From positions 1-64,000 of the forward strand of contig MEEF01000005.1 of assembly GCA_001724355.1 (NCBI GenBank): a stretch of 64,000 nt of DNA. Direction: 5' to 3'. The position numbers and the translations under genes are program-made. This stretch comes from Mesorhizobium sp. SCN 65-20. GTDB taxonomy: Bacteria; Pseudomonadota; Alphaproteobacteria; Rhizobiales; Rhizobiaceae. Shown piece after piece: positions 44,939 to 62,237 of this stretch. Within the stretch, counting starts at the first letter, position 1. Each line of letters begins with the position of its first letter. Below the pieces are notes generated by a model. It worked only from the letters and a program-made list of their open reading frames with translations. It was not told the DNA's origin and made no database searches.

Positions 44939-44949
44939 GTTTTTGATGT

Positions 44950-44965
44950 TGCACGGCAGTGCACA
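44950..44965. promoter_or_regulatory. LacI-type operator candidate (one degenerate half-site)
   Basis: TTGCAC-GGCA-GTGCAC, exactly 100 bp upstream of the perfect-arm site at 45050. Confidence 0.5.
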
Positions 44966-45049: not shown

Positions 45050-45065
45050 TTGCACGCCTGTGCAA
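45050..45065. promoter_or_regulatory. LacI-type operator upstream of ABC transporter operon
   Basis: TTGCAC-GCCT-GTGCAA, perfect 6-bp arms. Confidence 0.7.
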
Positions 45066-45220
45066 AAATTTGCCGAATCCCGATTGACACAAGCGTATCG
45101 GGAATGGAATGAATATGCCGTAGGCAGGCAATCTGCCGGCCGCCCGGAGGAGGGGCGGCAGCGACCGGAACCGGCGGATCTTTCGAGGCTCGCGACAGGT
45201 GGCGGCGCAATGGAGGAGGG

Positions 45221-45322
45221 ATGATGTTCGTGCCATCACTTGATTGGCGAGGCGCCTGCCAGCATTCGGCCGGCAGCTATGCCGCTCAGGCTTCCCGCCC
45301 GGCCAGAGGCAGCGCCTCGTGA
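45221..45322 (+). CDS. Leader/upstream ORF (33 aa) coupled to the permease gene
   Basis: ggaggaggg RBS, then MMFVPSLDWRGACQHSAGSYAAQASRPARGSAS; TGA overlaps the permease GTG (GTGA). Confidence 0.5.
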   Translation: MMFVPSLDWRGACQHSAGSYAAQASRPARGSAS

Positions 45323-47169
45323 GCAGCACTTCCCAGACTTCGGGCGCGATGGCCCGTCGGCAGGCAATGGCGGCTCCCAGCCGGGCGCAGCGCCTGCGCT
45401 ACCGGCTCAAGATCGCGCTTAGGGAACCGACTACCACCATCGGCATCCTCGCGGCGGCGCTGTTTGCCTATCTCATCGTCGTGCCGATCATTTCGATGCT
45501 GTCGGACGCCATGCGCGTCCAGTTCGGCGACGAGCGCCGCATCAAGCAGGACGTCGGCGACCTGACATGGTACTACATCGAGCGCGTCTTCGCCTCGCGC
45601 GTGTCCTACGATCTGTTCTGGGGGCCGCTGGTCAACACGCTGAGTGTCGCGGTCGGGGCGATAGCGCTGTCGATGCTGGTCGGCGGCACGCTTGCCTGGC
45701 TGCTCAGCCGCACCGACATGTTCGGCCGCCGCTGGTTCGCAACCGCGCTGATCGTGCCCTACATGCTGCCGGCCTGGACCTTCGCGCTGGCCTGGACGAC
45801 CCTGTTCAAGAACCGCACGGTGGGCGGCCAGCCCGGCTGGCTGGAATCGCTCGGCTTCACCCCGCCGGACTGGCTGGCCTATGGCCAGGTGCCGGTCACC
45901 ATCATCCTGGCGCTGCACTATTCGCCCTTCGTGATCCTGCTCTTCGGCAACGCGCTGCGTCGCTTCGATTCTCAGCTCGAAGACTCGGCACGCATCCTGG
46001 GCGCCAGCCGCCTGACGGTCGCCCGCAAGATCATCATGCCGCTGATGCGCCCGTCGCTGATGTCGGCGATGGTGCTGATCTTCGCCAAGTGCCTCGGCGA
46101 GTTCGGCGTGCCCTACGTGCTCGGCCTGCCTGTCAACTTCGACGTGCTGGCGACCTCGCTCTACCAGAACATCGCCTCGCGGCAGGTCGGCGTGGGCGCC
46201 GTGCTCGCCGGCTCGATCATGCTGATCGGCATCATCACCATCACCATCGACGCCCGCCTGATGAGGGAGGCACGCCGCTTCGTGACGATCGGCTCCAAGG
46301 GGTCGATGAACCGGCTGAGCCCACTCGGGGCGATGCGCATCCCCGCGACCGCCTTCGCGGCGCTGATGTTCCTGCTGAGCGTCGGGCTGCCGCTGATGAC
46401 GCTCATGCTATCGACGGTGATGCGGGTGCCGGCGCAGTTCACGCTGGACAATTTCACGCTCGACTACTGGTTCGGGACCGACCTCAACACCGTCGCCCTG
46501 CAGACAGGCATCCTGCTCAGCCCCGATCTGTGGAACGCGGCCTGGAACAGCCTGAGGATCGTCGGCATCGCGTCGCTGACCTCCGGGCTGCTCGGCCTTC
46601 TCGTCGGCTATGTTGTCGCGCGCACCCCGGTCAAGCCGCTGGGCACCTTCCTGCGCCAGGTGACGTTCCTGCCTTACCTGGTGCCGGGTATTGCCTTCGC
46701 AGCAGCCTATCTCTCGCTGTTTGCCGTGCCACGCGGACCGATACCCGCACTCTACGGCACCACCCTGATCCTGATGCTGGCGCTCATCGCCGACCAGATG
46801 CCCTATGCCTCGCGCGCCGGCATCGCCGCTATGACGCAACTCGGCAAGGAACCCGAGGAGGCCGCCCAGATCGCCGGCGCGGGCTGGTTCCGCCGCATGA
46901 CCTCGATCGTCATCCCGATCCAGAAGGGGGCGCTGACGACCGGCGTGCTCTTGCCCTTCATCTCCGGCATCAAGGGTCTCAGCCTGTTCGTCGTGCTCGC
47001 GGTGCCGTCCACGGACGTGCTGACCACCTATTCTTTGAGGCTGGTCGACTACAACTACACGCAGGCGGCCAACGCCGTCGTGCTCATTATCGCCGGCCTC
47101 GCCTATTTCGGCGCGCTGCTCGGCCAGAAGCTGACTAAGACCAATCTCGCCCAAGGACTGGGGACCTGA
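45319..47169 (+). CDS. AfuB/FbpB-like two-module ABC transporter permease
   Basis: Two BPD modules (LEDSARILGASRLTVARKIIMPLMRPSL and EPEEAAQIAGAGWFRRMTSIVIPIQKGAL). Confidence 0.9.
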   Translation: MSSTSQTSGAMARRQAMAAPSRAQRLRYRLKIALREPTTTIGILAAALFAYLIVVPIISMLSDAMRVQFGDERRIKQDVGDLTWYYIERVFASRVSYDLFWGPLVNTLSVAVGAIALSMLVGGTLAWLLSRTDMFGRRWFATALIVPYMLPAWTFALAWTTLFKNRTVGGQPGWLESLGFTPPDWLAYGQVPVTIILALHYSPFVILLFGNALRRFDSQLEDSARILGASRLTVARKIIMPLMRPSLMSAMVLIFAKCLGEFGVPYVLGLPVNFDVLATSLYQNIASRQVGVGAVLAGSIMLIGIITITIDARLMREARRFVTIGSKGSMNRLSPLGAMRIPATAFAALMFLLSVGLPLMTLMLSTVMRVPAQFTLDNFTLDYWFGTDLNTVALQTGILLSPDLWNAAWNSLRIVGIASLTSGLLGLLVGYVVARTPVKPLGTFLRQVTFLPYLVPGIAFAAAYLSLFAVPRGPIPALYGTTLILMLALIADQMPYASRAGIAAMTQLGKEPEEAAQIAGAGWFRRMTSIVIPIQKGALTTGVLLPFISGIKGLSLFVVLAVPSTDVLTTYSLRLVDYNYTQAANAVVLIIAGLAYFGALLGQKLTKTNLAQGLGT

Positions 47170-47170
47170 C

Positions 47171-48301
47171 ATGCCGAAGATCAACCTGCGCGGCGTCGAG
47201 AAGAACTACGGGGCGAACGCCGCCAACGCGGTGGCCGACCTCGATCTCGACATAGGCGACGGCGAATTCATGTGCCTGCTTGGGCCGTCGGGCTGCGGAA
47301 AGACGACGACGCTGCGCATGATCGCCGGGCTCGAACATCTGACCGCGGGCGAGATCAGGGTCGGGGCGCGGGTGGTCGACTCGGTGACCGAAGGTGTCTT
47401 CGTGCCGCCGGAGAAGCGCGACATGGGGCTGGTGTTCCAGAGCTATGCACTGTGGCCGCATCTCACCATCGAACGCAACACGGACTTCGGCCTGCGCCTG
47501 CGCAAGATGCCCAAGGCCGAGCGCGAGGCGCGCGTCGACCAGGTGATGAAGACGCTCGGCATCGAGAAGTACCGCGAGCGCTATCCGTCCCAGCTTTCGG
47601 GCGGCCAGCAGCAGCGCGTGGCATTGGCCCGCATGCTGGCGGTCAACCCGGAGGTGCTGTTGCTCGACGAGCCGCTGTCCAACCTCGACGCGGCGCTCCG
47701 TCTCGAGATGCGCGCCGAACTCAAGCGGCTGCACCGCGAGTTCAAGACGACGATCGTGTTCGTCACTCACGACCAGTGGGAAGCGATGACGCTCGCCACC
47801 ACGATCGCAGTGATGAGCGAGGGGCAACTGCAGCAGGTAGGCACCCCCAACGACATCTACGACCGCCCCGCCAACCGCTTCGTGGCGCAGTTCGTCGGCA
47901 ATCCGCCGATCAACATCGTCGAACTCGGCAACGGAAAATCCGAGGTATCGCGGCTGGCAAGGCAGTACCTCGGCGAGCGCTACGCCGAACTCGGTGACGC
48001 CGGCTCGATCGGCATCCGGCCGGAGTCTTTGAGGCTTGCCGACGCCGAACGCGGCGTTGCGGAGGGTGCGTTCTCCGGCCAGGCGGAGGTGACCGGCATC
48101 CTGCCTACCGGCGGCAGCTGGATCATCGAGCTCACCGCCGCCGGCGAGAAGCTGTTCATGACCACTCACCAGTCGCCTGAGGTGGAGGTGGGCGACGCGG
48201 TGACCTTCTGGGTCAAGCCCAAGGCGCTGCATGTGTTCGATGCCGAGGGCAACCGTTCGGAGGCGGCGGACCGGCTGTTCAGGCCGGTGAAGGTTCACTG
48301 A
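47171..48301 (+). CDS. AfuC/FbpC-like ABC transporter ATP-binding protein
   Basis: [51 protein letters not shown]-like C-terminus. Confidence 0.93.
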   Translation: MPKINLRGVEKNYGANAANAVADLDLDIGDGEFMCLLGPSGCGKTTTLRMIAGLEHLTAGEIRVGARVVDSVTEGVFVPPEKRDMGLVFQSYALWPHLTIERNTDFGLRLRKMPKAEREARVDQVMKTLGIEKYRERYPSQLSGGQQQRVALARMLAVNPEVLLLDEPLSNLDAALRLEMRAELKRLHREFKTTIVFVTHDQWEAMTLATTIAVMSEGQLQQVGTPNDIYDRPANRFVAQFVGNPPINIVELGNGKSEVSRLARQYLGERYAELGDAGSIGIRPESLRLADAERGVAEGAFSGQAEVTGILPTGGSWIIELTAAGEKLFMTTHQSPEVEVGDAVTFWVKPKALHVFDAEGNRSEAADRLFRPVKVH

Positions 48302-48392
48302 GGGAGACGCGGCGAGGCAACGCGCGCGCAAGGCATAAGACGACGGGAAACCAGGATCGCCTTGCCGGGCGGTCCGACACAGGGAGGAGAGC

Positions 48393-49529
48393 ATGACTGG
48401 ACTGTTCGACAAGAGGGTAGCGAAGGGGATGGCGGCTTCTGCGCTGGCGGTCGCTGCCGTGCTGTACGCCGGCGTGGCCGGCGCGCAGGAGAAGTTCGAC
48501 CTCGATGCGCTGATCGAGGCGGCCAAGAAGGAGCCGCCGATCAGCGTCTATTCGAGCACCGGCAAGATCGTGAAGCAGGCCGAGAACTTCACCAAGAAGT
48601 ACGGCGTGCAGGCAACCGGCACCAAGGCGAACGCCGCGGCACAGCTCGAGATGGTGATCCGCGAGGGCCAGGCCAAGAACGTGCAGGGCGACGTGATCCA
48701 GATCAGCGACGTGCCGGCCGGCGTGGCGCAGCTTGTGCCGCAGGGCTTCGTCGAGAGCTGGCTGCCACCGGATCTCGCTGACAAGATCCCGGCCAAGTAC
48801 CAGAACCCGCTGACCATCTCTAACGAGGCCAACGTCTTCGCCTACAACACACAGCTCAACGAGAGTTGCCCGGTGAAGAATATCTGGGAGCTGACCGAGG
48901 CCAAGTGGAAGGGCAAGGTCGCGATGCAGGACCCGCTCAACAAGGCGTCCTATGTCGACTGGTTCAACCAGATGGCGACGAACGCCGACGACAAGGTGGC
49001 AGCCGCCTACAAGGAGCACTATGGCAAGGACCTGGTGACCGACGAGGAGGGCGCAACGGCTGCCTGGGTGAAGGCGCTCGCCGCCAACGGGCCGCTGCTC
49101 ACCGACGCCGATGAGGGAGCTGCTCAGGCCGTGGGCGCACCGGACCAGAAGGAGCAGTTCATCGGCCTGATGAGCTCGGCCAAGTTCCGCAACAACAAGG
49201 ACGTCGGCAGCAAGCTCGGCCTTTGCGCCGGGCTCCAGCCCTTCGCCGGGTGGATGTATCCGAGCCTCGGCTTCATCGCCAAGGGCACCGACAGCCCCAA
49301 CGCGGCGAAGCTCTTCATCCACTACCTGCTGACGGAGGAGGGCATCGCCCCGCAGGCGGACGACGGCAAGATGTCGACCAACGCCGACGCGAAGCTGCCG
49401 GAAGACGAACCGTCCGGCATCGGCAAGGTCCTCGACCAGATCTTCCCCTACGACTCGGCGACCGCCCAGAGCGACTGGGATGCGCGCCAGGATTGGCAGG
49501 ATCTCTGGCGGGTCAATTACCAGAAATAG
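48393..49529 (+). CDS. AfuA/FbpA-like extracellular solute-binding protein (copy 1)
   Basis: Signal peptide; ISVYSSTGKIVKQAENFTKKYGVQATGTK... family 1/6 solute-binding fold. Confidence 0.9.
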   Translation: MTGLFDKRVAKGMAASALAVAAVLYAGVAGAQEKFDLDALIEAAKKEPPISVYSSTGKIVKQAENFTKKYGVQATGTKANAAAQLEMVIREGQAKNVQGDVIQISDVPAGVAQLVPQGFVESWLPPDLADKIPAKYQNPLTISNEANVFAYNTQLNESCPVKNIWELTEAKWKGKVAMQDPLNKASYVDWFNQMATNADDKVAAAYKEHYGKDLVTDEEGATAAWVKALAANGPLLTDADEGAAQAVGAPDQKEQFIGLMSSAKFRNNKDVGSKLGLCAGLQPFAGWMYPSLGFIAKGTDSPNAAKLFIHYLLTEEGIAPQADDGKMSTNADAKLPEDEPSGIGKVLDQIFPYDSATAQSDWDARQDWQDLWRVNYQK

Positions 49530-49541
49530 CGCTTGCACTGC

Positions 49542-49567
49542 CGCGCCCGGCAGGCCTGCCGGGCGCG
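49542..49567 (+). terminator. Perfect 26-bp palindrome between the tandem solute-binding genes
   Basis: CGCGCCCGGCAGGCCTGCCGGGCGCG then ttt. Confidence 0.6.
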
Positions 49568-49596
49568 TTTCAGCCGGAACCTGACGGGAGGAAGCG

Positions 49597-50739
49597 ATGA
49601 AACCGGCGTTTGGAACAAGCAGGAAAATAGCATTGGCGACGACGGCGCTGGCGAGCCTGATGGCCGGCGCCGTTCTGGCAGCGGCTCCGGCGCGTGCCCA
49701 GGCATTCGATCTCAACGCGCTGGTCGATGCGGCGAAGAAGGAAGCGCCGATCAACATCTACGACAGCACCGGCAAGATCGTCGAAATGGCCGAGAACTTC
49801 ACCAAGAAGTACGGCGTGCAGGCGACGGGCATCAAGGTTTCGGCGAGCGCGCAGCTCGAGATGATTGTGCGCGAGGGCCAGGCCAAGAACGTCAAGGGCG
49901 ACGTGGTGCTGATCACCGACGCGCCGGCCGGACTGGCGCAACTTCTGCCGCAGAAATTCGTCGAGAGCTATCTGCCGCCTGATATGGCCGACAAGATCCC
50001 GGCCAAGTTCCAGGATCCGCTGGCGATCACCACCAACGCTGCCATCTGGGCCTACAACACCGAGGTCTATGACAGCTGCCCGGTGAAGAACATCTGGGAA
50101 CTGACCGACCCGAAGTGGAAGGGCAGGGTGGCTTTCTATGACCCACTGTCGAAGGGCACCTATCCGGACTGGTTCAACCAGACCGCGACGCATGCAGACG
50201 ACAAGATGAAGGACGCCTACAAGGCGCATTTCGGCAAGGATATCGACGTCGGCGAAGACAGCGCAACGGCCGCCTGGGTAAAGGCCTTCGCCGGCAATGC
50301 GCCGCTGCTTGCGGACGCCGACGACGCGATCTCGGAAGCGGTCGGCGCGCCCGGCCAGAAGGAGCCGTTCTTCGGGCTGATGAGTTCGGCCAAGTTCCGC
50401 GACAATGCCGACAAGGGCTACAAGCTCGGCCTCTGCGAAGGGCTCGAGCCGTGGCCGGGCTGGACCTACGTCAAGCTCGGACTGATCGCGACCGGCACCA
50501 AGAGCCCGAACGCGGCCAAGCTGTTCATCCACTATATCCTGACCGAAGAAGGCATCGCGCCGCAGGTGAAGGACGGCAAGCTGCCGACCAATCCCGACAT
50601 CGGTCTGCCGGCGGACGAGCCCTCGGGTATCGGCAAGGTGCTGGACAAGCTGCAGCAATACGACGCCTCGACCGCGCTCGAGGACTGGGACGCGCGCCAG
50701 GATTGGCAGGACCTCTGGCGCGTCTCCTACAAGAAATAG
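49597..50739 (+). CDS. AfuA/FbpA-like extracellular solute-binding protein (copy 2)
   Basis: Close paralogue of copy 1 (INIYDSTGKIVEMAENFTKKYGVQATGIKVSASAQLEMIVREGQAKNVKGDV). Confidence 0.9.
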   Translation: MKPAFGTSRKIALATTALASLMAGAVLAAAPARAQAFDLNALVDAAKKEAPINIYDSTGKIVEMAENFTKKYGVQATGIKVSASAQLEMIVREGQAKNVKGDVVLITDAPAGLAQLLPQKFVESYLPPDMADKIPAKFQDPLAITTNAAIWAYNTEVYDSCPVKNIWELTDPKWKGRVAFYDPLSKGTYPDWFNQTATHADDKMKDAYKAHFGKDIDVGEDSATAAWVKAFAGNAPLLADADDAISEAVGAPGQKEPFFGLMSSAKFRDNADKGYKLGLCEGLEPWPGWTYVKLGLIATGTKSPNAAKLFIHYILTEEGIAPQVKDGKLPTNPDIGLPADEPSGIGKVLDKLQQYDASTALEDWDARQDWQDLWRVSYKK

Positions 50740-50754
50740 CTTCCCGGTGGGCTA

Positions 50755-50794
50755 GGGACGGAGCCCTTCTCCTTCGGCTCCGTCCCACTTTTTT
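50755..50794 (+). terminator. Rho-independent terminator after second solute-binding gene
   Basis: GGGACGGAGCC-N9-GGCTCCGTCCC-acTTTTTT. Confidence 0.85.
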
Positions 50795-50820
50795 CGCCGG
50801 GACGAAATGGAGACTTGAAG

Positions 50821-51627
50821 ATGTCGAAAAGCTCGGGGCGCAAGCTCGTGCCACCCAGGGCGCTGCTGCTGGATTTCGGCGGCGTGATCGTGGCGACCAC
50901 GCATGTGCCGGGATGGCGCGAGCGGCTGGCCTCGCATGTGCATAGCCTGCTCGATCAGGCCGGGGTGAAGGCGCCCGAGCTTTCGGTCGAGCAGATCGCT
51001 GATGACATCAAGGCGGGCGGCGTGGCCGACTCGCACTGGAAGGATGCGATGTCGCGGCCATTCTCGCCGCGCGAACTGCGCCATGAGGAATTCTGGGGCG
51101 ATTTCGTTGCGGGCGATTGGCCCAGGCCGGCCCGGGACGTGGTGGTGGCCGAGGCCTATGACCTCTGCCGCAAGATGGGCACCTGGAAGAGCGAGCGCGT
51201 CGTGCGTAAGGGCATGCTGGATCTTCTCGATGCAGCCGATGCGGCGGGCGTGCCGGTGGGCATCGTCAGCAACGCGCTCTGCGGGCAGGTTCATGTCGAC
51301 TTCCTCGAAACGCATGGGCTGACCGGGCGCTTCGCCGTCGTCATCCACAGCGACGAGGTGAAGGTGCGCAAGCCAAATCCGGAGATGATCTGGCTCGCCA
51401 CGCGCGCGCTTGGCATCGAGGCGGGCGATGCCTGGTATGTCGGCGACAATTTCGACCGCGACGTGCTGTGCGGCCAGCGTGCCGGAGTTGGGGGGAATAT
51501 CCTGATGGAGGCCAAGGGCACCTACGACCTGCCTTACGAACTCAAGCTCAAGCCGGATGCGATCGTGGCCGATCCGGTCGGGTTGCTCGCCCTGTTCACC
51601 GAGGCGACGCGGGGGATCGCAGCATGA
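50821..51627 (+). CDS. HAD-superfamily hydrolase (HAD-IA type)
   Basis: ALLLDFGGVIVATT; VGIVSNALCG; HSDEVKVRKPNPEMI; WYVGDNFDRDVLCGQRAG. Confidence 0.88.
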   Translation: MSKSSGRKLVPPRALLLDFGGVIVATTHVPGWRERLASHVHSLLDQAGVKAPELSVEQIADDIKAGGVADSHWKDAMSRPFSPRELRHEEFWGDFVAGDWPRPARDVVVAEAYDLCRKMGTWKSERVVRKGMLDLLDAADAAGVPVGIVSNALCGQVHVDFLETHGLTGRFAVVIHSDEVKVRKPNPEMIWLATRALGIEAGDAWYVGDNFDRDVLCGQRAGVGGNILMEAKGTYDLPYELKLKPDAIVADPVGLLALFTEATRGIAA

Positions 51628-52496
51628 TCGGCATCGACGAAGCCAGGCATTTGCGCGACGTCGCCGAGCGCGCGTCCAAGCTGATGCGCGAACCGCTGCT
51701 GGCGGCATTCCGTTCGCACATTTCGGTCGACTACAAGGTCGACCTGCACGACGTGGTCACCAGGTACGACAAGGAATCGGAAATAGCGATCCGCGCCTTC
51801 ATCCTGGGTGAAGTTCCGGACTCAGCCGTGCTCGGCGAGGAGGAGGGAGCGAGCGGCGAGGGCCGGGTGCAATGGTATGTCGACCCCATCGACGGCACCG
51901 CCAATTTCGCCCGCGGGCTTGCCTTCTGGTGCGTTTCCGTCGGCGCCGTCATCGACGGTGAGATCGTCGCGGGAGCCGTCTACGATCCGGTGGCCGACCT
52001 GTTGTTCTCGGCCGATCTTTCCGGCGCCTGGCTGAATGGCGAGCGGCTCAAATCCCGCTCGGTGCCCGACGAACGGCATGCAGCGCTGATCACGGGCTAT
52101 CCGGTGGAGCGCGATCTCAGGCTCGACGGCCGCGATCGGGCGCTCGCCAATTTCAGCGAACTGGTCGAGACGTTCTCGGCATTGCGGCGGCCGGGGAGCG
52201 CTGCGCTCAGCATTTGCCACGTCGCCGCCGGCTGGACGGACGCCGCAGCCGGCTTCGGCGTGAATGCCTGGGACGTGGCGGCGTCGATCCTGATCCTGCG
52301 CCAGGCCGGGGGCAGCTATCGGTCCCTGACCCTCGGCAAGGTCGATGCGGGCGCCCGGGATTTCATGTGCCCCGGCTATGTCGCGCTCGGCGAGGGCGCC
52401 GACTATCCGACGCTGATGCGGGTGGCGCGCGATATCTCGGACAGGCGCGACGCCGCTGGCCGGCCGAAGCTCTCGGTCGCCGGAGGCGGGGCATGA
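51624..52496 (+). CDS. Inositol monophosphatase family protein (1)
   Basis: LGEEEGASGEGRVQWYVDPIDGTANFARGLAFWCVSVGAV; NAWDVAASILILRQAGG. Confidence 0.93.
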   Translation: MIGIDEARHLRDVAERASKLMREPLLAAFRSHISVDYKVDLHDVVTRYDKESEIAIRAFILGEVPDSAVLGEEEGASGEGRVQWYVDPIDGTANFARGLAFWCVSVGAVIDGEIVAGAVYDPVADLLFSADLSGAWLNGERLKSRSVPDERHAALITGYPVERDLRLDGRDRALANFSELVETFSALRRPGSAALSICHVAAGWTDAAAGFGVNAWDVAASILILRQAGGSYRSLTLGKVDAGARDFMCPGYVALGEGADYPTLMRVARDISDRRDAAGRPKLSVAGGGA

Positions 52497-52594
52497 CGGC
52501 GGTGGAGACGCCCCGTGCACTAGTTTGCACAAATCTTGCCATTTCGGCACAGAATGATGCAAAGGAAATTATCAATTGCATGGTGTTGACGAAC

Positions 52595-52610
52595 TTGCAC
52601 GCGTGTGCAA
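52595..52610. promoter_or_regulatory. LacI-type operator upstream of second inositol monophosphatase gene
   Basis: TTGCAC-GCGT-GTGCAA, perfect 6-bp arms, directly after a TTGACG -35-like element. Confidence 0.75.
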
Positions 52611-52630
52611 CTTGACCTTAGGAACTACGC

Positions 52631-53464
52631 ATGAGCATTGACATGACCGTTCACGCCACAGCCCCGCAGACCCGCGTCGATACCGAGCTCGACCGGCGTT
52701 CCGCCTTCTGCCGCGAGATCGCCCGATCCGCGGGCGCGGTCGCCATGGACGGCTTCAAGAACCGTGTGCCGGGCTTCGGTATGAAAGGGCCTCAGGACTT
52801 CCTCACGGAAACCGATGCGGCCGTTGAAAGGCACCTCAAGGCACGGATCGCCGAGGCGTTTCCCGAGGACGGTTTCCTCGGCGAGGAGACGGGCGGAGCG
52901 ATCAAGCCGGAGATCTGGGTCGTCGACCCCATCGACGGCACCGCAAACTTCGCCCGCGACATTCCGCATTTCTGCATCGCCATCGCCTTCGTCAGCAACG
53001 GGCAGACCGAGATCGGCGCGATCTACAATCCCGCCCTCGACGAACTCTATTTCGCCCGGCGCGGCGAGGGGGCGACGCGCAACGGCAAGCCGATCTCGGT
53101 TGCGAAGACCGGCGACTTCGACGCGGCTTGCGTCGAGTTCGGCTGGTCGAACCGCAAGTCGAATGCGCGCTACATCGAGGTGCTCTCCAACATCCTCGAC
53201 CAGGGCGCCAATGTGCGCCGCGGCGCTTCTGGCGCACTCGGCCTCGCCTATGTCGCCGACGGGCGCTCCGACGCCTACGCCGAACTGCACATGCATCCCT
53301 GGGACTGTCTAGCGGGCCTGCTGATGGTGAAGGAAGCGGGCGGTGTCGTCGGGCCATATCTCGCGGTCGGGGGGCTGGCCGATGGTGGCGCGGTGCTTGC
53401 GGCAGCGCCCGGCGTTGCGGCAGGCATGAGCACTGCAACCGGCATTCCGCTCGAAGCGCGCTGA
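52631..53464 (+). CDS. Inositol monophosphatase family protein (2)
   Basis: FLGEETGGAIKPEIWVVDPIDGTANFARDIPHFCIAIAFV; HPWDCLAGLLMVKEAGG. Confidence 0.94.
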   Translation: MSIDMTVHATAPQTRVDTELDRRSAFCREIARSAGAVAMDGFKNRVPGFGMKGPQDFLTETDAAVERHLKARIAEAFPEDGFLGEETGGAIKPEIWVVDPIDGTANFARDIPHFCIAIAFVSNGQTEIGAIYNPALDELYFARRGEGATRNGKPISVAKTGDFDAACVEFGWSNRKSNARYIEVLSNILDQGANVRRGASGALGLAYVADGRSDAYAELHMHPWDCLAGLLMVKEAGGVVGPYLAVGGLADGGAVLAAAPGVAAGMSTATGIPLEAR

Positions 53465-53476
53465 GGCAAGGACGTC

Positions 53477-54109
53477 ATGGACATGAACAGCCCGCGTTAC
53501 GAGCGACCGGTGCTCAGTCTGATCGAGCGCGACGTCGCCGGCTACGGCGTCGATGTCTATATCGGCGGCATGGAGGGGGCCGGCGACCTGGACCTGCTCA
53601 GGGAAAAGAACATCACCACGGTGGTGAACTGCGCGGTCAATCTCGACTTCAACTATGCGACGGAGCCGTTCGGCGAAGGCGAGGCGGCGGATGTCATCTA
53701 CGGCGTGGGCGCCGTCCGCTACTACAAGCTCGGGCTGATCGACGGCCACGGCAACCCCGAGACCATGATGCTGTCGGGGTTTTATCTGCTGCGCGGCGCC
53801 CTGAGTCAGGTGCTGCCTGAAAAAGCCACCTATCGGCGGCGCGAGAAGGGCAACGTTCTCATCAACTGCCGAGGCGGCCGCAGTCGCTCGGTGTCGCTGG
53901 TGGCACTCTTCCTGCATGTCGAGATGCCCGAGAAATTCCCGACACTCGACGATGCGCTCGACCATGTGCGTACCCGCCGCGAGTTGCGCCGCGACGAATG
54001 GCACGAGGCGCCAAAGCCGATGTTGGTCGAGGCCGCTCGCAAGGCGGCCCAGTGGATTGCGATGATCGAAAACGGATTGCCGGCCCCCGTCTTGGCCGCA
54101 CGAGACTGA
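53477..54109 (+). CDS. Dual-specificity-phosphatase-like protein
   Basis: VDVYIGGMEGAGDLDLLREKNITTVVNCAVN...VLINCRGGRSRSVSLVALFLH (CX5R). Confidence 0.85.
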   Translation: MDMNSPRYERPVLSLIERDVAGYGVDVYIGGMEGAGDLDLLREKNITTVVNCAVNLDFNYATEPFGEGEAADVIYGVGAVRYYKLGLIDGHGNPETMMLSGFYLLRGALSQVLPEKATYRRREKGNVLINCRGGRSRSVSLVALFLHVEMPEKFPTLDDALDHVRTRRELRRDEWHEAPKPMLVEAARKAAQWIAMIENGLPAPVLAARD

Positions 54110-54138
54110 CGGCCGCCCGCCTGCGCAGCGAGAATGAA

Positions 54139-55866
54139 ATGAAGATTGCCGTCATCGCAGACCCGCACTTCCACGACATCGACAACCGCCAGGGTGTGGC
54201 GCGAGGCGACCGGGTGGCGATCCGGACCCTGGCCGACACCAACGCCTCGACGCGCGTATTCAACGAGAGCTTCCATGCCACGCGTGCCCTGCTCGACGAC
54301 ATTGTCCGGCGCGGCATCTCGCTGGTCGTCGTTGCCGGCGACCTGACCGACGACGGCCAGCAGTCGACCATGGCGGCGGCGACGGCGCTGTTCGCCGACT
54401 ATTCCCGGCGCTTCGGCCTGCGCTTCGTGGGGACGCCGGGCAACCACGACCTTTACGCCATACACGGGAGGCACCAGAGCAAGCGCTTCCTCAACCCCGA
54501 CGGCTTGCCCACGCTGGTGACCAGCGATCCGGACATGGGGCGCGGAAATTCGGTCGAGCGCATCGTTTCGGCCGAGATGTATTGCGGCGGCTACGGCAGC
54601 GCGATCCCGGCGATGGAAACGTTCGGCTTCTTCCGCAGCAAGGGCGACGTGCACTGGGAGTGCCCGTTCGGACAGGACGACGCGCTTGAGGCGCGGAGCT
54701 TCGAGATCGTCTCGGCCGATGGGCAGACGCGCCGGCGCATGGTCGACGCATCGTTTCTGGTCGAGCCGGTCGAGGGGCTGTGGCTGCTCTCCATCGACGC
54801 CAATGTGTTCGAACCGAAGAACGGCGATCTCGATCCGGCGCTGGAAAAGAGCTATCACGACAGCACGGACGCCGGCTGGAACTCGATGCCGCGCAACAAG
54901 GGCTTCGTGCTCGACTGGATGCGGGATGTGGCCACGCGGGCGAAGGCCTCGGGCAAGCAGTTGATCGCGTTCTCCCACTACCCGATCATCGACCCTCTCA
55001 ACGGCACATCGGCGGACGAGGCGAGGCTGCTCAACGACACGAGCTTCCTGCGCCGCACGCCGCGGCCGGAGGTGTCGCAGGTGGCTGCCGCGACCGGCAT
55101 CAAGGTGCATTTCAGCGGCCACCTTCACATCAACGACACGGCCGTGTTCCGCGACGGCGACGACTGGCTGGTCAACATCGCAGTGCCGTCGATGGTTGGC
55201 TTCCCTCCGGCCTACAAGATCGTCGAGATCGAGGAGGGCAGGATGGACATCGAGACGGTCACGGTTGCCGACGTGCCGGGGTATGACGCCGCGTTTCCGC
55301 TCTATCGTGTGGAGGCAGCGTGGGAAGGCACCTCGGCCGCAGTCACCGAGGCCGCGAACCACGCCGATTTCCTGAGCCGCCATCTCGCCGAGATGGTGCG
55401 GCACCGCTACCTGCCCAAGGAGTGGCCCCAGGATCTCGCTGGGCTGGTTCCGCAACTCACGCTCGGAGATCTCGACCGTCTGGCGGGATGCAATGCGCCG
55501 CTGACGGCAAGCGATACCTTGCCGTTTCTCGCGTCGATTGACGAAGGGGACAGGGATGGCTGGCGCGCGCTGCCCTTCTTCGAAATGGTCGTCGACTGGT
55601 ACAGGCTGCGCAAGGGCCGCGAGATCGGGCTCGACTTCATCGCGCCCGAGCGGATCGCTGCCTATCGCCACCTGGCCGGGTGCTTCAAGGCGGGAGCCAG
55701 GCCCGACGGCAGCCTGCAAGACCGTCTGTCGGCGTTCATGCGGATGATGGTCGATTGGCTGGAGAGCGCGCCGTCACGCGACTTCTCGGTCGATCTTTCG
55801 ACCGGCGAGGTGACCGCTCGGGATCACTTGGGCCGAACGGTGCGCCGCCACACCGGGGCAGCGTGA
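54139..55866 (+). CDS. Calcineurin-like metallophosphoesterase with long C-terminal extension
   Basis: IAVIADPHFHDID; VVAGDLTDDG; GTPGNHD; FSHYPI; HFSGHLHIND; about 200 aa beyond the phosphoesterase core. Confidence 0.88.
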   Translation: MKIAVIADPHFHDIDNRQGVARGDRVAIRTLADTNASTRVFNESFHATRALLDDIVRRGISLVVVAGDLTDDGQQSTMAAATALFADYSRRFGLRFVGTPGNHDLYAIHGRHQSKRFLNPDGLPTLVTSDPDMGRGNSVERIVSAEMYCGGYGSAIPAMETFGFFRSKGDVHWECPFGQDDALEARSFEIVSADGQTRRRMVDASFLVEPVEGLWLLSIDANVFEPKNGDLDPALEKSYHDSTDAGWNSMPRNKGFVLDWMRDVATRAKASGKQLIAFSHYPIIDPLNGTSADEARLLNDTSFLRRTPRPEVSQVAAATGIKVHFSGHLHINDTAVFRDGDDWLVNIAVPSMVGFPPAYKIVEIEEGRMDIETVTVADVPGYDAAFPLYRVEAAWEGTSAAVTEAANHADFLSRHLAEMVRHRYLPKEWPQDLAGLVPQLTLGDLDRLAGCNAPLTASDTLPFLASIDEGDRDGWRALPFFEMVVDWYRLRKGREIGLDFIAPERIAAYRHLAGCFKAGARPDGSLQDRLSAFMRMMVDWLESAPSRDFSVDLSTGEVTARDHLGRTVRRHTGAA

Positions 55867-56843
55867 AAGCAGGCGCGGCTTCCGGTTGCAGGCCCGATCT
55901 CTTCCCTTTCGAGCAACGCCGAGATGTGGTCGGCGATCTGGTCGATCGGCTGGCGAAAGGTGGTGAGCTGGTAGGAGGCCCAGCCTGCCTGCTCGATGTC
56001 GTCGAAGCCGACGACGCACAGCTCGGACGGCACGTCCATGCCGAACTCGACGCGCGCCGCGTCCATGAAGCCGCAGGCCAGCAGATCGGTGACGCAGAAG
56101 GCGGCGTCTGGGCGGTCGGAGCCGCTGAGCAGCAGGCGGCCCGCCTCGAAGCCGGCGCCGTAGCCCGTGGGGCCGGCCCGGGCGATGGTGACCGCAAGCC
56201 CCGCCTCGCGTGCGGCTTCCTCGAAGCCCTGCTCGCGGGCGACGAGGCTGGGTGTGCCGGCATTCGACGAGACGACCGCGATGCGCCGGCAGCCGGCGCG
56301 GTGCAGCATGTGGAATGCCTCACGGGCGGCGGCTGTGTTGTCGACGGTGATGCTCTCGGGCCCGGCGAGGTGGTCGTCGCGGTTGATCAGGATGACGTGC
56401 TGGCCGCTGTTGATGCAGGTGTTGATCAGTGATGCCGGCGGCGTGCCTGACAGTACGATCGTGGCGTTGGCGCGGTAGTTGAGCGTCTGCCGCAGTGCCG
56501 CCTCTACGCTGGCGCTGTCGCCCGAGGTGTTGATCACCATGGCGACGCGGCTGATCGCCTGGAGGCGACGGGTGATCGCGTCGATCAGGCGCGAATGGTA
56601 GGGCGTGTTGATGTCGGCGCCGATGAGGCAGACGATGCCGCTGTCTTCATGGATGAGGCTGCGGGCCAAGTGGTTGACGTGGTATCCGAGCTTATCCGCT
56701 GCCTCGAGGACCTTTTTGCGGGTCGTCTCGGAAACGCTGGCGCCGTCGGTGAAGGTGCGGGATACCGCTGATCGCGAAACCCCGGCCAACTCGGCCACCT
56801 GCTGTGCGCTCACGAAGGATCTGCCCGGCTTCAATTCGGACAT
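55824..56843 (-). CDS. LacI-family transcriptional regulator
   Basis: SAQQVAELAGVSRSAVSRTFTDGASVSETTRKKVLEAADKLGYHVNHLARSL plus periplasmic-binding-like domain; 43-bp convergent overlap with metallophosphoesterase gene. Confidence 0.93.
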   Translation of the reverse strand: MSELKPGRSFVSAQQVAELAGVSRSAVSRTFTDGASVSETTRKKVLEAADKLGYHVNHLARSLIHEDSGIVCLIGADINTPYHSRLIDAITRRLQAISRVAMVINTSGDSASVEAALRQTLNYRANATIVLSGTPPASLINTCINSGQHVILINRDDHLAGPESITVDNTAAAREAFHMLHRAGCRRIAVVSSNAGTPSLVAREQGFEEAAREAGLAVTIARAGPTGYGAGFEAGRLLLSGSDRPDAAFCVTDLLACGFMDAARVEFGMDVPSELCVVGFDDIEQAGWASYQLTTFRQPIDQIADHISALLEREEIGPATGSRACFHAAPVWRRTVRPK

Positions 56844-56886
56844 TCACAGCTCCAGTTTGGCCACCCTGGGGACGGACCCGCAGGCG

Positions 56887-56902
56887 TTGCACAAATGTGC
56901 AA
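56887..56902. promoter_or_regulatory. LacI-type operator upstream of the lacI-family gene (autoregulation candidate)
   Basis: TTGCAC-AAAT-GTGCAA, perfect 6-bp arms. Confidence 0.75.
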
Positions 56903-56930
56903 TCGTCTCTCCTGATACAATCGGATTCCG

Positions 56931-56966
56931 AGCGCTGCAATCCTGCTGCTGTAATCTTGCAGCGCT
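56931..56966. repeat. Inverted repeat between NUDIX and lacI-family genes
   Basis: AGCGCTGCAA-N16-TTGCAGCGCT, perfect 10-bp arms. Confidence 0.65.
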
Positions 56967-56980
56967 CGCGCCGTCGGCCG

Positions 56981-57469
56981 TCAGGCCGGCGTGGCCGCCA
57001 TCTCTTCCGGCTGCGCCACGTCGGCCGCAGTCAGGTTGCGGATCAGCGTCGCAAGTTCCGGCTCGTCGATGAGGATCGCGGCGTCGGCGGGTGTCAGCCA
57101 GGCGCGCTGCCGGGCACCAGCCTCCTGCCAGGCGGTGAGTTCCTCTATCACCTCGACGAGGTACGCCGTAACCTCGACATGGACGAAGCTGGTCGAAAGG
57201 CGCTTCCAGTAGCAATAGCTGCCAGCGGGCCTTTTCAATACCTTGCCCTTTACGCCGGCTTCCTCGCGAGCCTCGATCATTGCCGCCTGGCGCGCGCTCT
57301 TGCCCTTCATCGGCCAGCCCTTCGGCACAATGAAGCGCCGCGTCCCACGCGAGGTGACGAGCATGACTTCAAGCTTGCCGCCGCCATCTACCCTGAACGG
57401 AATGGCAGCGACCTGGACGATGCGCTCGCCCTTGTTCGCCTTGCGAATGGTCTTCTTGTCCTTAGGCAT
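56981..57469 (-). CDS. NUDIX hydrolase
   Basis: RRFIVPKGWPMKGKSARQAAMIEAREEAGVKGKV (Nudix box). Confidence 0.92.
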   Translation of the reverse strand: MPKDKKTIRKANKGERIVQVAAIPFRVDGGGKLEVMLVTSRGTRRFIVPKGWPMKGKSARQAAMIEAREEAGVKGKVLKRPAGSYCYWKRLSTSFVHVEVTAYLVEVIEELTAWQEAGARQRAWLTPADAAILIDEPELATLIRNLTAADVAQPEEMAATPA

Positions 57470-57664
57470 TTGCGCCCGGCACTTCCTTTCTCATGCAGGA
57501 GACCGCTGCTCGCTGCATTTGTAGCAGGCCGCCGGCTCCGGTTCATCACACGTTAGATAGTACGATGAACACGATTGCAAAATGCGCAAAAACCACTCAC
57601 TCTGCAACAGACCAAAACGGCAAAAGATCGTTAGACGGCGAAATATAGTGGAGGGAACCAAAAC

Positions 57665-58690
57665 ATGAAGACTGCCTATTTGTGTTCGGCCGCGCTGGCG
57701 GCGCTTGTCGTTGCGGGAGCAGGATCGGCGAATGCGGCGAGCCTGACGCTCTATTGCAGCGCGGACGAGGCCTGGTGCCAGCAGATCAAGACCGGTTTCG
57801 AGGAAAAGACCGGCATCACCGTGGACATGACGCGCAAGAGTTCCGGCGAGACCTACGCCCAGGTCCGCGCCGAAGCGGGCAACCCGAAGGGCGACGTCTG
57901 GTGGGGCGGGACCGGCGACCCGCATCTGCAGGCTGCCGAGGAAGGACTGACCGAGGAGTACATCTCGCCGATGCGCGGCGAGTTGCACGACTGGGCCATC
58001 AAGCAGGCTGAGGCCGCCGGAAACAAGACGATCGGCGTCTATTCGGGCGCACTCGGCTTCGGCTACAACAAGGATCTTCTTGCCAAGAACAACCTGCCCG
58101 AGCCCAAGTGCTGGGCCGACCTGACCAAGCCCGAATTCAAGGGTCACATCCAGATCGCCAACCCGAACTCGTCGGGTACCGCCTACACCACACTCGCGAC
58201 GATGGTGCAGCTGATGGGCGAGGACAAGGGCTTCGAGTTCATGAAGGCCCTGCACAAGAACGTCAACCAGTACACCAAGTCCGGCTCGGCGCCGATCAAG
58301 GCGGCAGGCCTGGGAGAAACCACGGTCGGCATCGTCTTCATGCACGACGCGGTGTCGCAGACGGCCGCAGGCTTCCCGATCGTCACGGTGGCTCCATGCG
58401 AAGGCACCGGCTACGAGATCGGCTCGATGTCGATCATCAAAGGCTCCCGCAACATCGACGAAGCGAAGCAGTTCTATGACTGGGCGCTCTCGGCCGAAAT
58501 GCAGGGCAAGGCGAAGGACGTGAAGTCGTTCCAACTGCCGTCGAACAAGGCTGCGGCGGTTTCGGAGCTGACGCCGGACCTGTCGACAATCAAGCTCATC
58601 GACTACGATTTCAAGAAGTATGGATCGAGCGAGGAGCGCAAGCGGCTCCTGTCGAAATGGGACGAGGAAGTCGCGACCCTGCCACAATAG
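57665..58690 (+). CDS. AfuA/FbpA-like extracellular solute-binding protein (second system)
   Basis: Signal peptide; LTLYCSADEAWCQQIKTGFEEKTGITVDMTRKSSGETYAQVRAEAGNPKGDVWWGGTGDPH. Confidence 0.92.
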   Translation: MKTAYLCSAALAALVVAGAGSANAASLTLYCSADEAWCQQIKTGFEEKTGITVDMTRKSSGETYAQVRAEAGNPKGDVWWGGTGDPHLQAAEEGLTEEYISPMRGELHDWAIKQAEAAGNKTIGVYSGALGFGYNKDLLAKNNLPEPKCWADLTKPEFKGHIQIANPNSSGTAYTTLATMVQLMGEDKGFEFMKALHKNVNQYTKSGSAPIKAAGLGETTVGIVFMHDAVSQTAAGFPIVTVAPCEGTGYEIGSMSIIKGSRNIDEAKQFYDWALSAEMQGKAKDVKSFQLPSNKAAAVSELTPDLSTIKLIDYDFKKYGSSEERKRLLSKWDEEVATLPQ

Positions 58691-58693
58691 TCC

Positions 58694-60949
58694 ATGCGCT
58701 CGCGTGACCTTAGCGGCGGCCTGCATCCGGCCGTCATCCTCTGGATGGCGGTCGGGTGGCTCGGCTTTGCCGTGCTCCCCTGGTATGGCGTCGAAGACGG
58801 GTTCTTCGGCTTTTCCTGGCTGTTCGAGGGCTATCCCCTCGACAGCGAACTTGCGCCTGCGCTGATCCTCAATCTCAAGGCGGAGAAGCTGTGGCTGGCG
58901 CCGCTCGGGCTTCTGCTTGCAGCTCCGCTGTTGCTGTGGGGACGAAAGAAGTCCGACCCGCTGTTCGGCAAGCTGCTCGTCGCCGTGGGTGCTGCGGGCT
59001 TCGCGTGGCTGGTGTTCCAGGGCTTCGCCATCGGTCTCCGCGGCTGGCAGTTCGGCTGGCTCGAGGCGCTGTTCGGCGAACTGGGTGACCGCCAGTTCGG
59101 CATGGGCTACGGCGCACTGCTCGTCGGTCTCGCCTTCCTCTTCCTGTTCTCGCTCGGGCTGGCAGCACGCGGTGCTGTTGGCGGCGACGTCTTCGTGGTG
59201 TCGACCATAGCCTTCGTTGTGGCCTCGGTCGGCCTGTTCATCTTCATGCCCATCCTGCAGATGCTGGCCAACGCGCTCATCACCGACGAGGGCAGCTATT
59301 CGTTGGCGACCTTCCTCGCCAAGCTGTTCAGCGCGCGGCTGTGGAGCCTCGATTGCCTGATGGGCGGCAGCCGCTGCGGCGTCGCCTGGAACTCCCTGTT
59401 CCTTGCGGTCCTCGTCGGCGTGCTGACGACCGTGCTGGGACTGATCTTCGCGCTGGTGATGACGCGCACGGGCTTTCGATATGGCAAGCTCTTGCGCGCG
59501 CTGACGGTGCTGCCGATCATCACGCCGCCCTTCGTCATCGGCCTCGCCATCATCCTGCTCTTCGGCCTGTCGGGCGCGGTCACGCAGACATTCTCGGAGT
59601 TGTTTGGCATCCAGCCGACGCGCTGGATTTACGGGCTGCCGGGGTTGCTGATCGCCCAGCTTCTCGCCTTCACGCCGATCGCCTTCCTGGTGCTGATCGG
59701 CGTGGTCGAAGGCGTCAGCCCGTCGATGGAGGAGGCGGCGCAGACGCTGCGCGCCAACCGCTGGCAGACCTTCTGGACGGTGACGCTGCCCTTGATGCGG
59801 CCGGGCCTCGCCAACGCCTTCCTGCTTGGCTTCATCGAGAGCATGGCCGACTTCGGCAATCCGCTCGTGCTCGGCGGTAATTTCGACGTGCTGTCGACGG
59901 AAATCTTCTTCGCCATCGTCGGCGCGCAAAACGACGAAGCGCAGGCGGCGGTGCTGGCCATCGTACTGCTCGCCTTCACGCTGCTCGCCTTCTATGCCCA
60001 GCGCTTCTGGCTCGGCAAGAAGTCCTACACGACGATGTCGGGCAAGGGCGATGCCGGCGTGCATCCGCAGCTGCCCACCGGCCTCAAGCGGGCCGTCTAC
60101 GGCGTCGCCGGCTTCTGGGTCGCCTTCACCATCTTTGTCTACGCGACCATCTTCTACGGCAGCTTCGTCAAGCTCTGGGGCGTCGACCACAGCCTGACCC
60201 TTGCTCACTACATCAAGGCGTTCGCCGTGGGCTGGAACGAGTTCGGCATCCACTGGAAGGGCTCGGCCTGGAGTTCGTTCTGGACGACGCTGAAGATCGC
60301 GCTGATCTCGTCGCCGCTGACGGCGGCAATCGGCCTGCTCACCGCCTATCTGCTCGTGCGGCAGAACTTCGCCGGCAAGAACGCCTTCGAGTTCGGCACC
60401 ATGCTGTCCTTCGCCATTCCCGGCACGGTGATCGGCGTGAGTTACGTGATCGCCTTCAACGTGCCGCCGATCGAGCTCACCGGCACCGGCATCATCCTGG
60501 TGCTGTCCTTCATCTTCCGCAACATGCCGGTGGGCGTGCGGGCGGGCGTGGCGTCGATGTCGCAGATCGACAAGAGCCTGGACGAGTCGTCGCTGACCCT
60601 GGGTGCCAACTCCTGGCAGACCTTCCGCAAGGTGGTGCTGCCACTGCTCCGGCCGGCGATCGTGGCCGCACTCGTCTATTCCTTCGTACGCGCCATGACG
60701 GCGATCAGCGCCATCATTTTCTTGGTCAGCGCGCGCTACGACATGTCGACGAGCTACATCGTCGGTCGCGTCGAAAACAACGAATACGGCATCGCGATCG
60801 CCTATTCGGCAGTGCTGATCGGCGTCATGCTGGCGGTGGTGGGGCTGATGCAGTTGCTCGTCGGCCGACGCAATATCGGCCGACGCGGGCATGAACTGTC
60901 GCAATCGCGCACCAATGTGAGCCAGTCGGCATTTTCGGGAGGCGGCTGA
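58694..60949 (+). CDS. AfuB-like two-module ABC transporter permease (second system)
   Basis: 751 aa; SMEEAAQTLRANRWQTFWTVTLPLMRPGLANAFLLGFIESMADFGNP and SLDESSLTLGANSWQTFRKVVLPLLRPAIVAALVYSFVRAM. Confidence 0.92.
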   Translation: MRSRDLSGGLHPAVILWMAVGWLGFAVLPWYGVEDGFFGFSWLFEGYPLDSELAPALILNLKAEKLWLAPLGLLLAAPLLLWGRKKSDPLFGKLLVAVGAAGFAWLVFQGFAIGLRGWQFGWLEALFGELGDRQFGMGYGALLVGLAFLFLFSLGLAARGAVGGDVFVVSTIAFVVASVGLFIFMPILQMLANALITDEGSYSLATFLAKLFSARLWSLDCLMGGSRCGVAWNSLFLAVLVGVLTTVLGLIFALVMTRTGFRYGKLLRALTVLPIITPPFVIGLAIILLFGLSGAVTQTFSELFGIQPTRWIYGLPGLLIAQLLAFTPIAFLVLIGVVEGVSPSMEEAAQTLRANRWQTFWTVTLPLMRPGLANAFLLGFIESMADFGNPLVLGGNFDVLSTEIFFAIVGAQNDEAQAAVLAIVLLAFTLLAFYAQRFWLGKKSYTTMSGKGDAGVHPQLPTGLKRAVYGVAGFWVAFTIFVYATIFYGSFVKLWGVDHSLTLAHYIKAFAVGWNEFGIHWKGSAWSSFWTTLKIALISSPLTAAIGLLTAYLLVRQNFAGKNAFEFGTMLSFAIPGTVIGVSYVIAFNVPPIELTGTGIILVLSFIFRNMPVGVRAGVASMSQIDKSLDESSLTLGANSWQTFRKVVLPLLRPAIVAALVYSFVRAMTAISAIIFLVSARYDMSTSYIVGRVENNEYGIAIAYSAVLIGVMLAVVGLMQLLVGRRNIGRRGHELSQSRTNVSQSAFSGGG

Positions 60950-60984
60950 TGGGGGGCTTCCTGATACAGATCGGGGGCTTGATA

Positions 60985-61124
60985 CCCCCACCCCTGACCC
61001 CTCCCCACAAGGGGGAGGGGGATTCCCGCACCCCGGCTTCAGGGATCTGCGTTACCTGCCGATCGGCCGAGGCTGTGCGCCGGCAGTCCCCCTCCCCCTT
61101 GTGGGGAGGGGCCAGGGGTGGGGG
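60985..61124. repeat. MITE-like inverted-repeat element inside the ABC transporter operon
   Basis: Arms 60985-61022 and 61087-61124: 37 of 38 bp complementary (CCCCCACCCCTGACCCCTCCCCACAAGGGGGAGGGGGA / reverse complement), 64-bp centre. Confidence 0.88.
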
Positions 61125-61160
61125 TGCTGCCAGAGGCAGACAGAAATCGAGGAAACTCTG

Positions 61161-62237
61161 ATGGCCGAGATCAAGAGCAACGCCGCTTCGGTGGAGTTCC
61201 GCGAGGTCACCAAGATCTATGGCAAGAGCACCGTGCCGGCGGTCAACGATGTGTCGCTGTTCGTCGAGGCGGGCAAGCTGGTGACGCTGCTTGGGCCCTC
61301 CGGCTGCGGCAAGACAACGACGTTGCGCATGATCGCCGGCCTGGAGATGGCGACGCGCGGCAGGATCCTGATCGGCGGGGCGGATGTCACGCACCTGCCG
61401 GCGACCGACCGCGACGTGTCGATGGTGTTCCAGTCCTATGCGCTGTTCCCGCATATGACGGTCAACGAGAACGTCGAATACGGGCTGAAATTCTCGGGCT
61501 TCGCCAAGAAGGAGATCGCCGACCGGGCGCGGGCCGGGCTCGATCTGGTCGGCCTCGGCGGTTACGGCAGCCGACTGCCGAGCGAACTCTCCGGCGGCCA
61601 GCAGCAGCGTGTGGCGGTGGCGCGCGCACTGGTTCTGGAGCCGCAGGTGCTCCTGTTCGACGAACCTCTGTCCAACCTCGACGCCAAGCTGAGGCGCCGG
61701 GTGCGCGAGGAAATCCGCGATATCCAGACCAAGCTCGGGCTGACCGTCGTCTATGTTACCCACGACCAGGAGGAGGCGCTGGCCGTCTCCGACCGTATCA
61801 TCGTCATGAACAATGCGGTGATCGCCCAGGACGGTACCCCGCGCGAGCTCTACGACGCGCCGGCGGATGCCTTCGTCGCCGACTTCATCGGCGAGGCCAA
61901 TATCTTCGACTGCGAGATCGCATCGGTGGAGGGAGACCTTGCCAATGTGCGGTTGGGCGGTTTCGAAACCCAGCTCGACGCGCGCGGGATGAAGCCGGGG
62001 CCAGCGAAGCTGGCGGTGCGGCCGAGCAGGATCCAGATCCGGGCGGCGGGCGCACCGAGCACCATTCCCGGCCGGCTCGACAAGGTGACCTATGTCGGCT
62101 CCGACCTGGAATTCATGGTGGGCACCGAGTTCGGCGAGGTATTCGCCGTGTCGCCCGACGTCGATGCGCCGTTCCACGCGGGGCAGGAGGTCGGTATCGG
62201 CTTCGCCGCACGCGGGCCGGTGCTTATCAGGGCCTGA
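61161..62237 (+). CDS. AfuC-like ABC transporter ATP-binding protein (second system)
   Basis: [65 protein letters not shown]. Confidence 0.94.
   Translation: MAEIKSNAASVEFREVTKIYGKSTVPAVNDVSLFVEAGKLVTLLGPSGCGKTTTLRMIAGLEMATRGRILIGGADVTHLPATDRDVSMVFQSYALFPHMTVNENVEYGLKFSGFAKKEIADRARAGLDLVGLGGYGSRLPSELSGGQQQRVAVARALVLEPQVLLFDEPLSNLDAKLRRRVREEIRDIQTKLGLTVVYVTHDQEEALAVSDRIIVMNNAVIAQDGTPRELYDAPADAFVADFIGEANIFDCEIASVEGDLANVRLGGFETQLDARGMKPGPAKLAVRPSRIQIRAAGAPSTIPGRLDKVTYVGSDLEFMVGTEFGEVFAVSPDVDAPFHAGQEVGIGFAARGPVLIRA

Follow-up and report, generated by a model that had tools for sequence, protein, structure and literature searches.

This study concerns a 64,000-nucleotide stretch of Mesorhizobium sp. 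SCN 65-20 DNA (contig MEEF01000005.1, positions 1 to 64,000), referred to below as the window, and a gene cluster at 45.3–62.2 kb of it (17.2 kb) that combines ATP-binding cassette (ABC) importers, phosphohydrolases, and a LacI-family regulator. The genome of the window (G000) was counted with Aminobacter. The original prediction, made from the sequence alone, had read the cluster as a LacI-controlled regulon for import and dephosphorylation of a phosphorylated organic compound. All 14 genes that it named were located, with intact frames and in the families given, and only start sites were refined: PERM1 starts at GTG 45319, not TTG 45244, and the starts of MPE and ATP2 were revised to 54139 and 61161. 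On the plus strand, PERM1, ATP1, SBP1, SBP2, HAD, IMP1, IMP2, DUSP, and MPE run from 45319 to 55866, with gaps of 1, 91, 67, 75, -4, 134, 12, and 29 nt (PERM1 and ATP1 are 1 nt apart; HAD and IMP1 overlap by 4 nt). LacI (55824–56843) and NUDIX (56981–57469) lie on the minus strand, the 3' ends of lacI and MPE overlapping tail to tail, and SBP3, PERM2, and ATP2 (57665–62237) are again on the plus strand. The features are as follows.

44949–44964, no strand: auxiliary operator TTGCACGGCAGTGCAC, one mismatch, 101 bp upstream of the main operator
45050–45065, no strand: main LacI-type operator TTGCACGCCTGTGCAA, upstream of the importer operon and followed by a conserved TTGACA hexamer
45224–45322, plus: short open reading frame (ORF) of 32 codons with a strong Shine-Dalgarno (SD) sequence; its TGA overlaps the PERM1 GTG
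45319–47169, plus: PERM1, fused FbpB-type ABC permease with two BPD_transp_1 domains
47171–48301, plus: ATP1, ABC ATPase with TOBE_2
48393–49529, plus: SBP1, solute-binding protein (SBP; SBP_bac_11) without the Tyr-Tyr iron dyad
49597–50739, plus: SBP2, tandem paralogue of SBP1
50815–51627, plus: HAD-superfamily hydrolase, motif I DFGGV
51624–52496, plus: IMP1, inositol-monophosphatase (IMPase)-family phosphatase
52595–52610, no strand: operator TTGCACGCGTGTGCAA, between IMP1 and IMP2
52631–53464, plus: IMP2, second IMPase-family phosphatase
53477–54109, plus: DUSP-like Cys phosphatase (NCRGGRSRS)
54139–55866, plus: MPE, calcineurin-type metallophosphoesterase with a C-terminal helical domain and, in a model, a phosphodiesterase-like fold
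55824–56843, minus: LacI-family regulator
56887–56902, no strand: operator TTGCACAAATGTGCAA, 43 bp upstream of lacI, which suggests autoregulation
56981–57469, minus: NUDIX protein resembling diphosphoinositol polyphosphate phosphohydrolases, with a degenerate Nudix box; probably a bystander
57665–58690, plus: SBP3, AfuA-like, predicted to bind sugar phosphates; S37, T150, H205, D206, and E229 (AfuA numbering) are kept
58694–60949, plus: PERM2, AfuB-like fused permease
61161–62237, plus: ATP2, AfuC-like ATPase

The palindrome TTGCAC-N4-GTGCAA occurs exactly before the importer (45050), IMP2 (52595), and lacI (56887), with a one-mismatch copy at 44949. Three exact copies in the 17.2 kb compare with 0.0006 expected from composition, and four in the whole genome with 0.13 expected. 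The three exact sites recur before the importer, IMP2, and lacI in all ten Aminobacter genomes, and a reversed control pattern gave 0 matches in the same genomes. A conserved palindrome that precedes target operons as well as the regulator gene itself in 10 of 10 Aminobacter genomes predicts a local regulon of the LacI family, in which LacI would bind the palindrome and respond to a ligand. The auxiliary operator stands upstream of the main one in all eight Aminobacter loci compared, at 101–102 bp in seven and at 91 bp in the eighth. The shorter distance is one helical turn less, as expected for DNA looping by two bound LacI molecules, and such looping probably takes place at the importer promoter. 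In the same eight genomes, TTGACA follows the main operator, and an SD-preceded ORF of 31–35 codons ends in a TGA that overlaps the permease GTG; its length is kept while its residues are poorly conserved except for the first few and the final Ser, a pattern that makes translational coupling to PERM1 probable.

The only other exact operator in the window's genome lies on contig C72, unlinked to the cluster, 111 bp before a gene with Na_Pi_cotrans (PF02690) and PhoU domains, the architecture of YjbB. An operator precedes the orthologue in 10 of 10 Aminobacter genomes, with no mismatch in 3, one in 4, and two in 3; about 2% of random 200-bp stretches held a match with at most two mismatches, a control that overstates chance, as the stretches were drawn from loci including these clusters. 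The cluster of Sinorhizobium, of Ensifer, and of several order-level relatives (genera of other families among them) itself includes a Na/Pi gene; these genes form a diverged subgroup that shares 35% identity with its Aminobacter counterpart. Two separate routes, linkage and operator, thus place the phosphate transporter in the same unit as the importer and the hydrolases. For the characterised relative YjbB, a passage of PMC11850910 that cites Motomura 2011 reports export of phosphate (Pi) upon overproduction, and by analogy the transporter described here probably exports Pi. A cell would need such an exporter if phosphoesters were taken up for their carbon. Taken together, the operator set and the in-cluster Na/Pi linkage suggest that the importer, the phosphohydrolases, and the probable phosphate exporter most likely constitute one regulon for import, intracellular dephosphorylation, and phosphate release.

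Phosphatases beside importers could also serve phosphorus scavenging within the Pho regulon, with organic phosphoesters as the phosphorus source, and the window does hold pstSC-phoU-phoB. We regard this as unlikely, because the Pho-box search gave the site at 8347 at the pst genes only, which served as a positive control, and none in the cluster, because the regulator is of LacI type, and because a co-regulated Pi exporter makes no sense under phosphorus starvation. The pst region itself (8314–14827 of the window) comprises pstS-like, pstC, phoU, and phoB genes, and its Pho box is a good one.

The 14-gene block was identical in the seven other Aminobacter genomes mapped, whereas the importer, IMP, DUSP, and LacI genes were reshuffled in Shinella, Sinorhizobium, Ensifer, Microvirga, Devosia, and three genera of another family (f6). 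Since gene order differs among these genera, the linkage is not mere synteny, and the same block in Aminobacter together with its rearranged versions in other genera and families shows that the arrangement is not due to chance. In detail, the Sinorhizobium megaplasmid pSymB carries IMP2-DUSP-MPE-NaPi, a reversed LacI, and PERM1-ATP1-SBP1-SBP2-IMP1-DUSP; the Shinella cluster has AfuABC-IMP in front; and the cluster occurs in five f6 genomes (G403, G261, G443, G542, G575), with HAD also in G403. The distant relatives G460 and G074 combine this type of importer with an IMP-family gene, G460 also having HAD and a ROK regulator. Among the six other-family genomes searched, both genome-wide exact operators lie inside the cluster in five (G403, G261, G443, G542, G284), and the sixth, G575, has one inside and one outside. 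An exact operator on contig C14 of G051 had no recurring target and was taken as chance. Two further features of the Sinorhizobium and Ensifer clusters were observed: in Sinorhizobium sp. B11, a CofD/YvcK-family gene, along with an unknown gene, immediately precedes IMP2-DUSP-MPE-NaPi (L040 257–2018), and in both genera there are short RpiR-type helix-turn-helix proteins of about 96–122 aa (L093 29889–30257, L094 6147–6437).

SBP1 and SBP2 are 65% identical, and SBP2 groups with the SBP2 proteins of Sinorhizobium and Microvirga in a tree of 27 SBPs, which indicates that their duplication is old. In this tree, relatives that are linked to two-component genes and lack the hydrolases make up a single clade with full support, separate from the hydrolase-linked SBPs. 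That group, about 45% identical and represented in G078, G398, G288, and G575 (contig C30), was set aside. Hydrolase loss accompanies SBP divergence, which argues for a functional tie between importer and hydrolases; within the SBP clade concerned, the neighbourhoods thus bear out the proposal that the phosphatases go together with the transporters.

The permease and SBP families carry iron-transport names in databases, and SBP1 is distantly similar to C. jejuni FbpA, which would suit a ferric importer (FbpABC) whose neighbours are unrelated to it. A profile search of SBP1/2 against the PDB gave weak, partial matches only, to AfuA and to iron SBPs, so no ligand residues could be transferred. 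The Tyr-Tyr dyad that serves as the FbpA-type iron ligand was searched for and is absent from SBP1, SBP2, and SBP3, as had been expected if iron is not the substrate, and QF stands at the YY of FbpA in the SBP1 alignment. With the operator tying the importer to phosphatases and the Na/Pi transporter, and with SBP3 50% identical to AfuA and retaining every sugar-phosphate ligand tested, iron import is highly improbable. Equally improbable is an importer for 2-aminoethylphosphonate or another phosphonate (AepXVW/PhnSTUV type), which the earlier work had raised as a relative. The best NCBIfam names of both permeases and of SBP3 are PhnU2/phnS2-type, but every match fell below the curated cut-off (in bits, 222/393 for SBP3, 141/593 for PERM1, 271/593 for PERM2, 337/458 for ATP1, and 365/458 for ATP2); no phosphonatase or C-P lyase gene was found in the cluster, and phosphoester hydrolases would not cleave C-P bonds.

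SBP3 was compared with A. pleuropneumoniae AfuA at five ligand positions and keeps all of them, the phosphate-coordinating S37 and T150 and the sugar-coordinating H205, D206, and E229; mutation of these residues lowers or abolishes glucose-6-phosphate binding, according to the binding results in PMC4546632. Relatives of SBP3 in Shinella, G443, and G542 keep the AfuA ligands where covered, and a 36% identical relative lacks H205/D206. SBP3-PERM2-ATP2 would therefore import hexose- or heptose-6-phosphate. It had been proposed that LacI controls this second ABC set and the NUDIX gene together with the rest; the operator is genus-wide before the importer, IMP2, and lacI, but none was found before SBP3 or NUDIX in Aminobacter, so both are neighbours rather than shown members of the regulon. 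In two f6 genomes (G443, G542), on the other hand, AfuABC and PERM1 diverge from a shared promoter region that holds two to three copies of the operator. As judged from these promoters, AfuABC is a recurrent partner whose LacI control is lineage-dependent. A highly conserved block, ATGAACACGATTGCAAAATGCG...CACTCACTCTGCAA at 57568–57610, precedes SBP3 in all Aminobacter and is probably the site for a different regulator of AfuABC. Between PERM2 and ATP2 lies a palindromic element (60984–61125; 45-nt arms, 93% complementary, 52-nt spacer). Counting both strands, the genome holds about 60 matches related to it; PERM2 and ATP2 are nearly adjacent in L077, L079, and L081, and given these two observations the element looks like a mobile intergenic repeat.

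Among the hydrolases, IMP1 and IMP2 have intact DPIDGTxNF and GEE metal-binding motifs, as do DUSP its C-x5-R and MPE its D-x-H/GD/GNHD/H/GHLH motifs; motif I of HAD reads DFGGV where DxD is expected. The structural model of MPE (mean predicted local distance difference test, pLDDT, 73.5) has Lmo2642 as its closest fold, followed by the phosphodiesterases GpdQ, SMPDL3, and Rv0805, at 10–14% identity and modest template-modelling scores (TM-scores); judging from this model, a diester step by MPE is possible. At L037, L039, L051, L053, and similar loci, MPE-family genes have no importer beside them; their neighbours there encode glycosyltransferases, a large ABC ATPase, and a cyclic-nucleotide-binding protein.

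A serious though clearly less probable alternative is that the substrate is inositol (poly)phosphates or glycerophosphoinositol, with DUSP, MPE, and both IMPase-family enzymes converting the imported lower forms to inositol. The two IMP genes point in this direction, as does a porin gene together with a periplasmic histidine acid phosphatase gene, related to AppA phytase and Agp, that precedes the importer and DUSP on the same strand in G126 and G026. The fold of the MPE model resembles the glycerophosphodiesterase GpdQ, and the adjacent NUDIX protein is nearest to diphosphoinositol polyphosphate phosphohydrolases. On the other hand, members of the IMPase family accept many phosphates, only the importer and DUSP occur in the lineage with the histidine acid phosphatase, and the mapped clusters contained no inositol catabolic gene. 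Against the curated inositol-1-monophosphatase model NF008027 (cut-off 332 bits), IMP1 and IMP2 scored 105 and 155. The NUDIX gene is not conserved in the mapped clusters outside Aminobacter, and the AfuA ligands of SBP3 point to hexose or heptose phosphates. The NUDIX protein, whose Nudix box lacks its first E and R, has no operator of its own and is confined to Aminobacter clusters; it is probably a bystander, and its inclusion in the regulon was dropped. The AppA/Agp-type phosphatase with Porin_2 lies at L065 15041–18064 and L066 14354–17378 and may represent a phytate or glucose-1-phosphate variant.

In our view, the locus is likely to form the core of a LacI-family regulon through which phosphorylated organic compounds are used as carbon sources. 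Sugar or polyol phosphates, or diesters, are the likeliest substrates. SBP1/SBP2-PERM1-ATP1 would import an intact phosphoester, from which cytoplasmic HAD, IMP1, IMP2, DUSP, and the phosphodiesterase-like MPE would strip the phosphate or phosphates, and the freed sugar or polyol would enter catabolism. Surplus phosphate would leave via the co-regulated YjbB-type Na/Pi transporter, which is encoded elsewhere in Aminobacter and in the cluster in other genera. Until it binds its ligand, LacI would act as a repressor at the TTGCAC-N4-GTGCAA sites, with DNA looping probably involved at the importer promoter. The neighbouring AfuABC would add import of hexose- or heptose-6-phosphate; only certain relatives have it in this regulon. 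Growth of S. meliloti with glucose-6-phosphate as its carbon source has been reported (PMC4207669, Table 2).

Several observations weigh against this model. The main operator precedes the -35-like hexamer, a position that fits activation as well as looping repression; the SBP3 promoter region of Aminobacter has its different conserved block and no operator; and Na/Pi proteins may import. Because the IMP, HAD, DUSP, and MPE families are promiscuous, the hydrolases do not reveal the substrate. Members of the MPE family are also found away from importer loci, in regions rich in glycosyltransferase genes. An AlphaFold model of SBP2 built with 16 close homologues reached a pLDDT of 32 and was unusable, leaving the pocket unreadable. 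In sum, the original prediction is borne out in part: import with dephosphorylation in place of iron uptake is supported by the genus-wide operator, the linkage across several families, and the co-regulated Na/Pi gene, and LacI control of NUDIX and, in this genus, of the second ABC set is not supported.

A wider reading, to which we give slightly less than even weight, is that Alphaproteobacteria possess a distinct and widespread pathway that takes up organophosphate esters, perhaps including diesters, and hydrolyses them stepwise inside the cell for carbon, while the LacI-co-regulated Na/Pi transporter actively exports Pi; the importer would belong to a specialised ABC family with several SBPs, which have no close relative among solved binding proteins. 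If so, root-associated bacteria may take organophosphates for their carbon and release Pi to the surroundings, for example the rhizosphere. Phosphorylated metabolites may be the cargo of many ABC systems now annotated for iron import. Because the operator-defined regulon is also found on pSymB of S. meliloti, an annotation question becomes open to a direct test in a model symbiont. Literature on the S. meliloti locus was sought by locus-tag prefix and gene families, and nothing was found.

UhpT and GlpT (PMC4546632, PMC11850910) are organophosphate:Pi antiporters, in which import of an intact phosphoester is likewise balanced by Pi release; here, an ABC importer, intracellular phosphatases, and a separate Na/Pi transporter would share these jobs. 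In the agrocinopine acc operon, a sugar phosphodiester is imported and then treated by a phosphodiesterase and an IMPase-family phosphatase, that is, by a diesterase and a monoesterase as proposed here, although its SBP is of the peptide type. The second ABC set has the gene order of AfuABC from Actinobacillus and Citrobacter, and SBP3 keeps the AfuA ligands, whereas SBP1 and SBP2 form a separate, distant family; the account of AfuABC in the passages of PMC4546632 consulted does not describe phosphohydrolases, LacI control, or a Pi exporter with it. The 2-aminoethylphosphonate importer AepXVW (PMC8316502) belongs to the same broad transporter superfamily, but the present proteins stay below its cut-offs and have no phosphonate genes beside them. 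The transporter shares the domains of YjbB and differs in standing under a LacI operator and in its genetic linkage to predicted phosphoester catabolism. A term search in the main text of PMC4052901, a survey of LacI regulons, did not bring up the regulon. Systems for sugar-phosphate import (AfuABC, UhpT) and phosphatases inside the cell are of kinds already known; their LacI-defined combination, a multi-SBP importer with four to five phosphohydrolases and a phosphate transporter, appears to be new in the literature searched.

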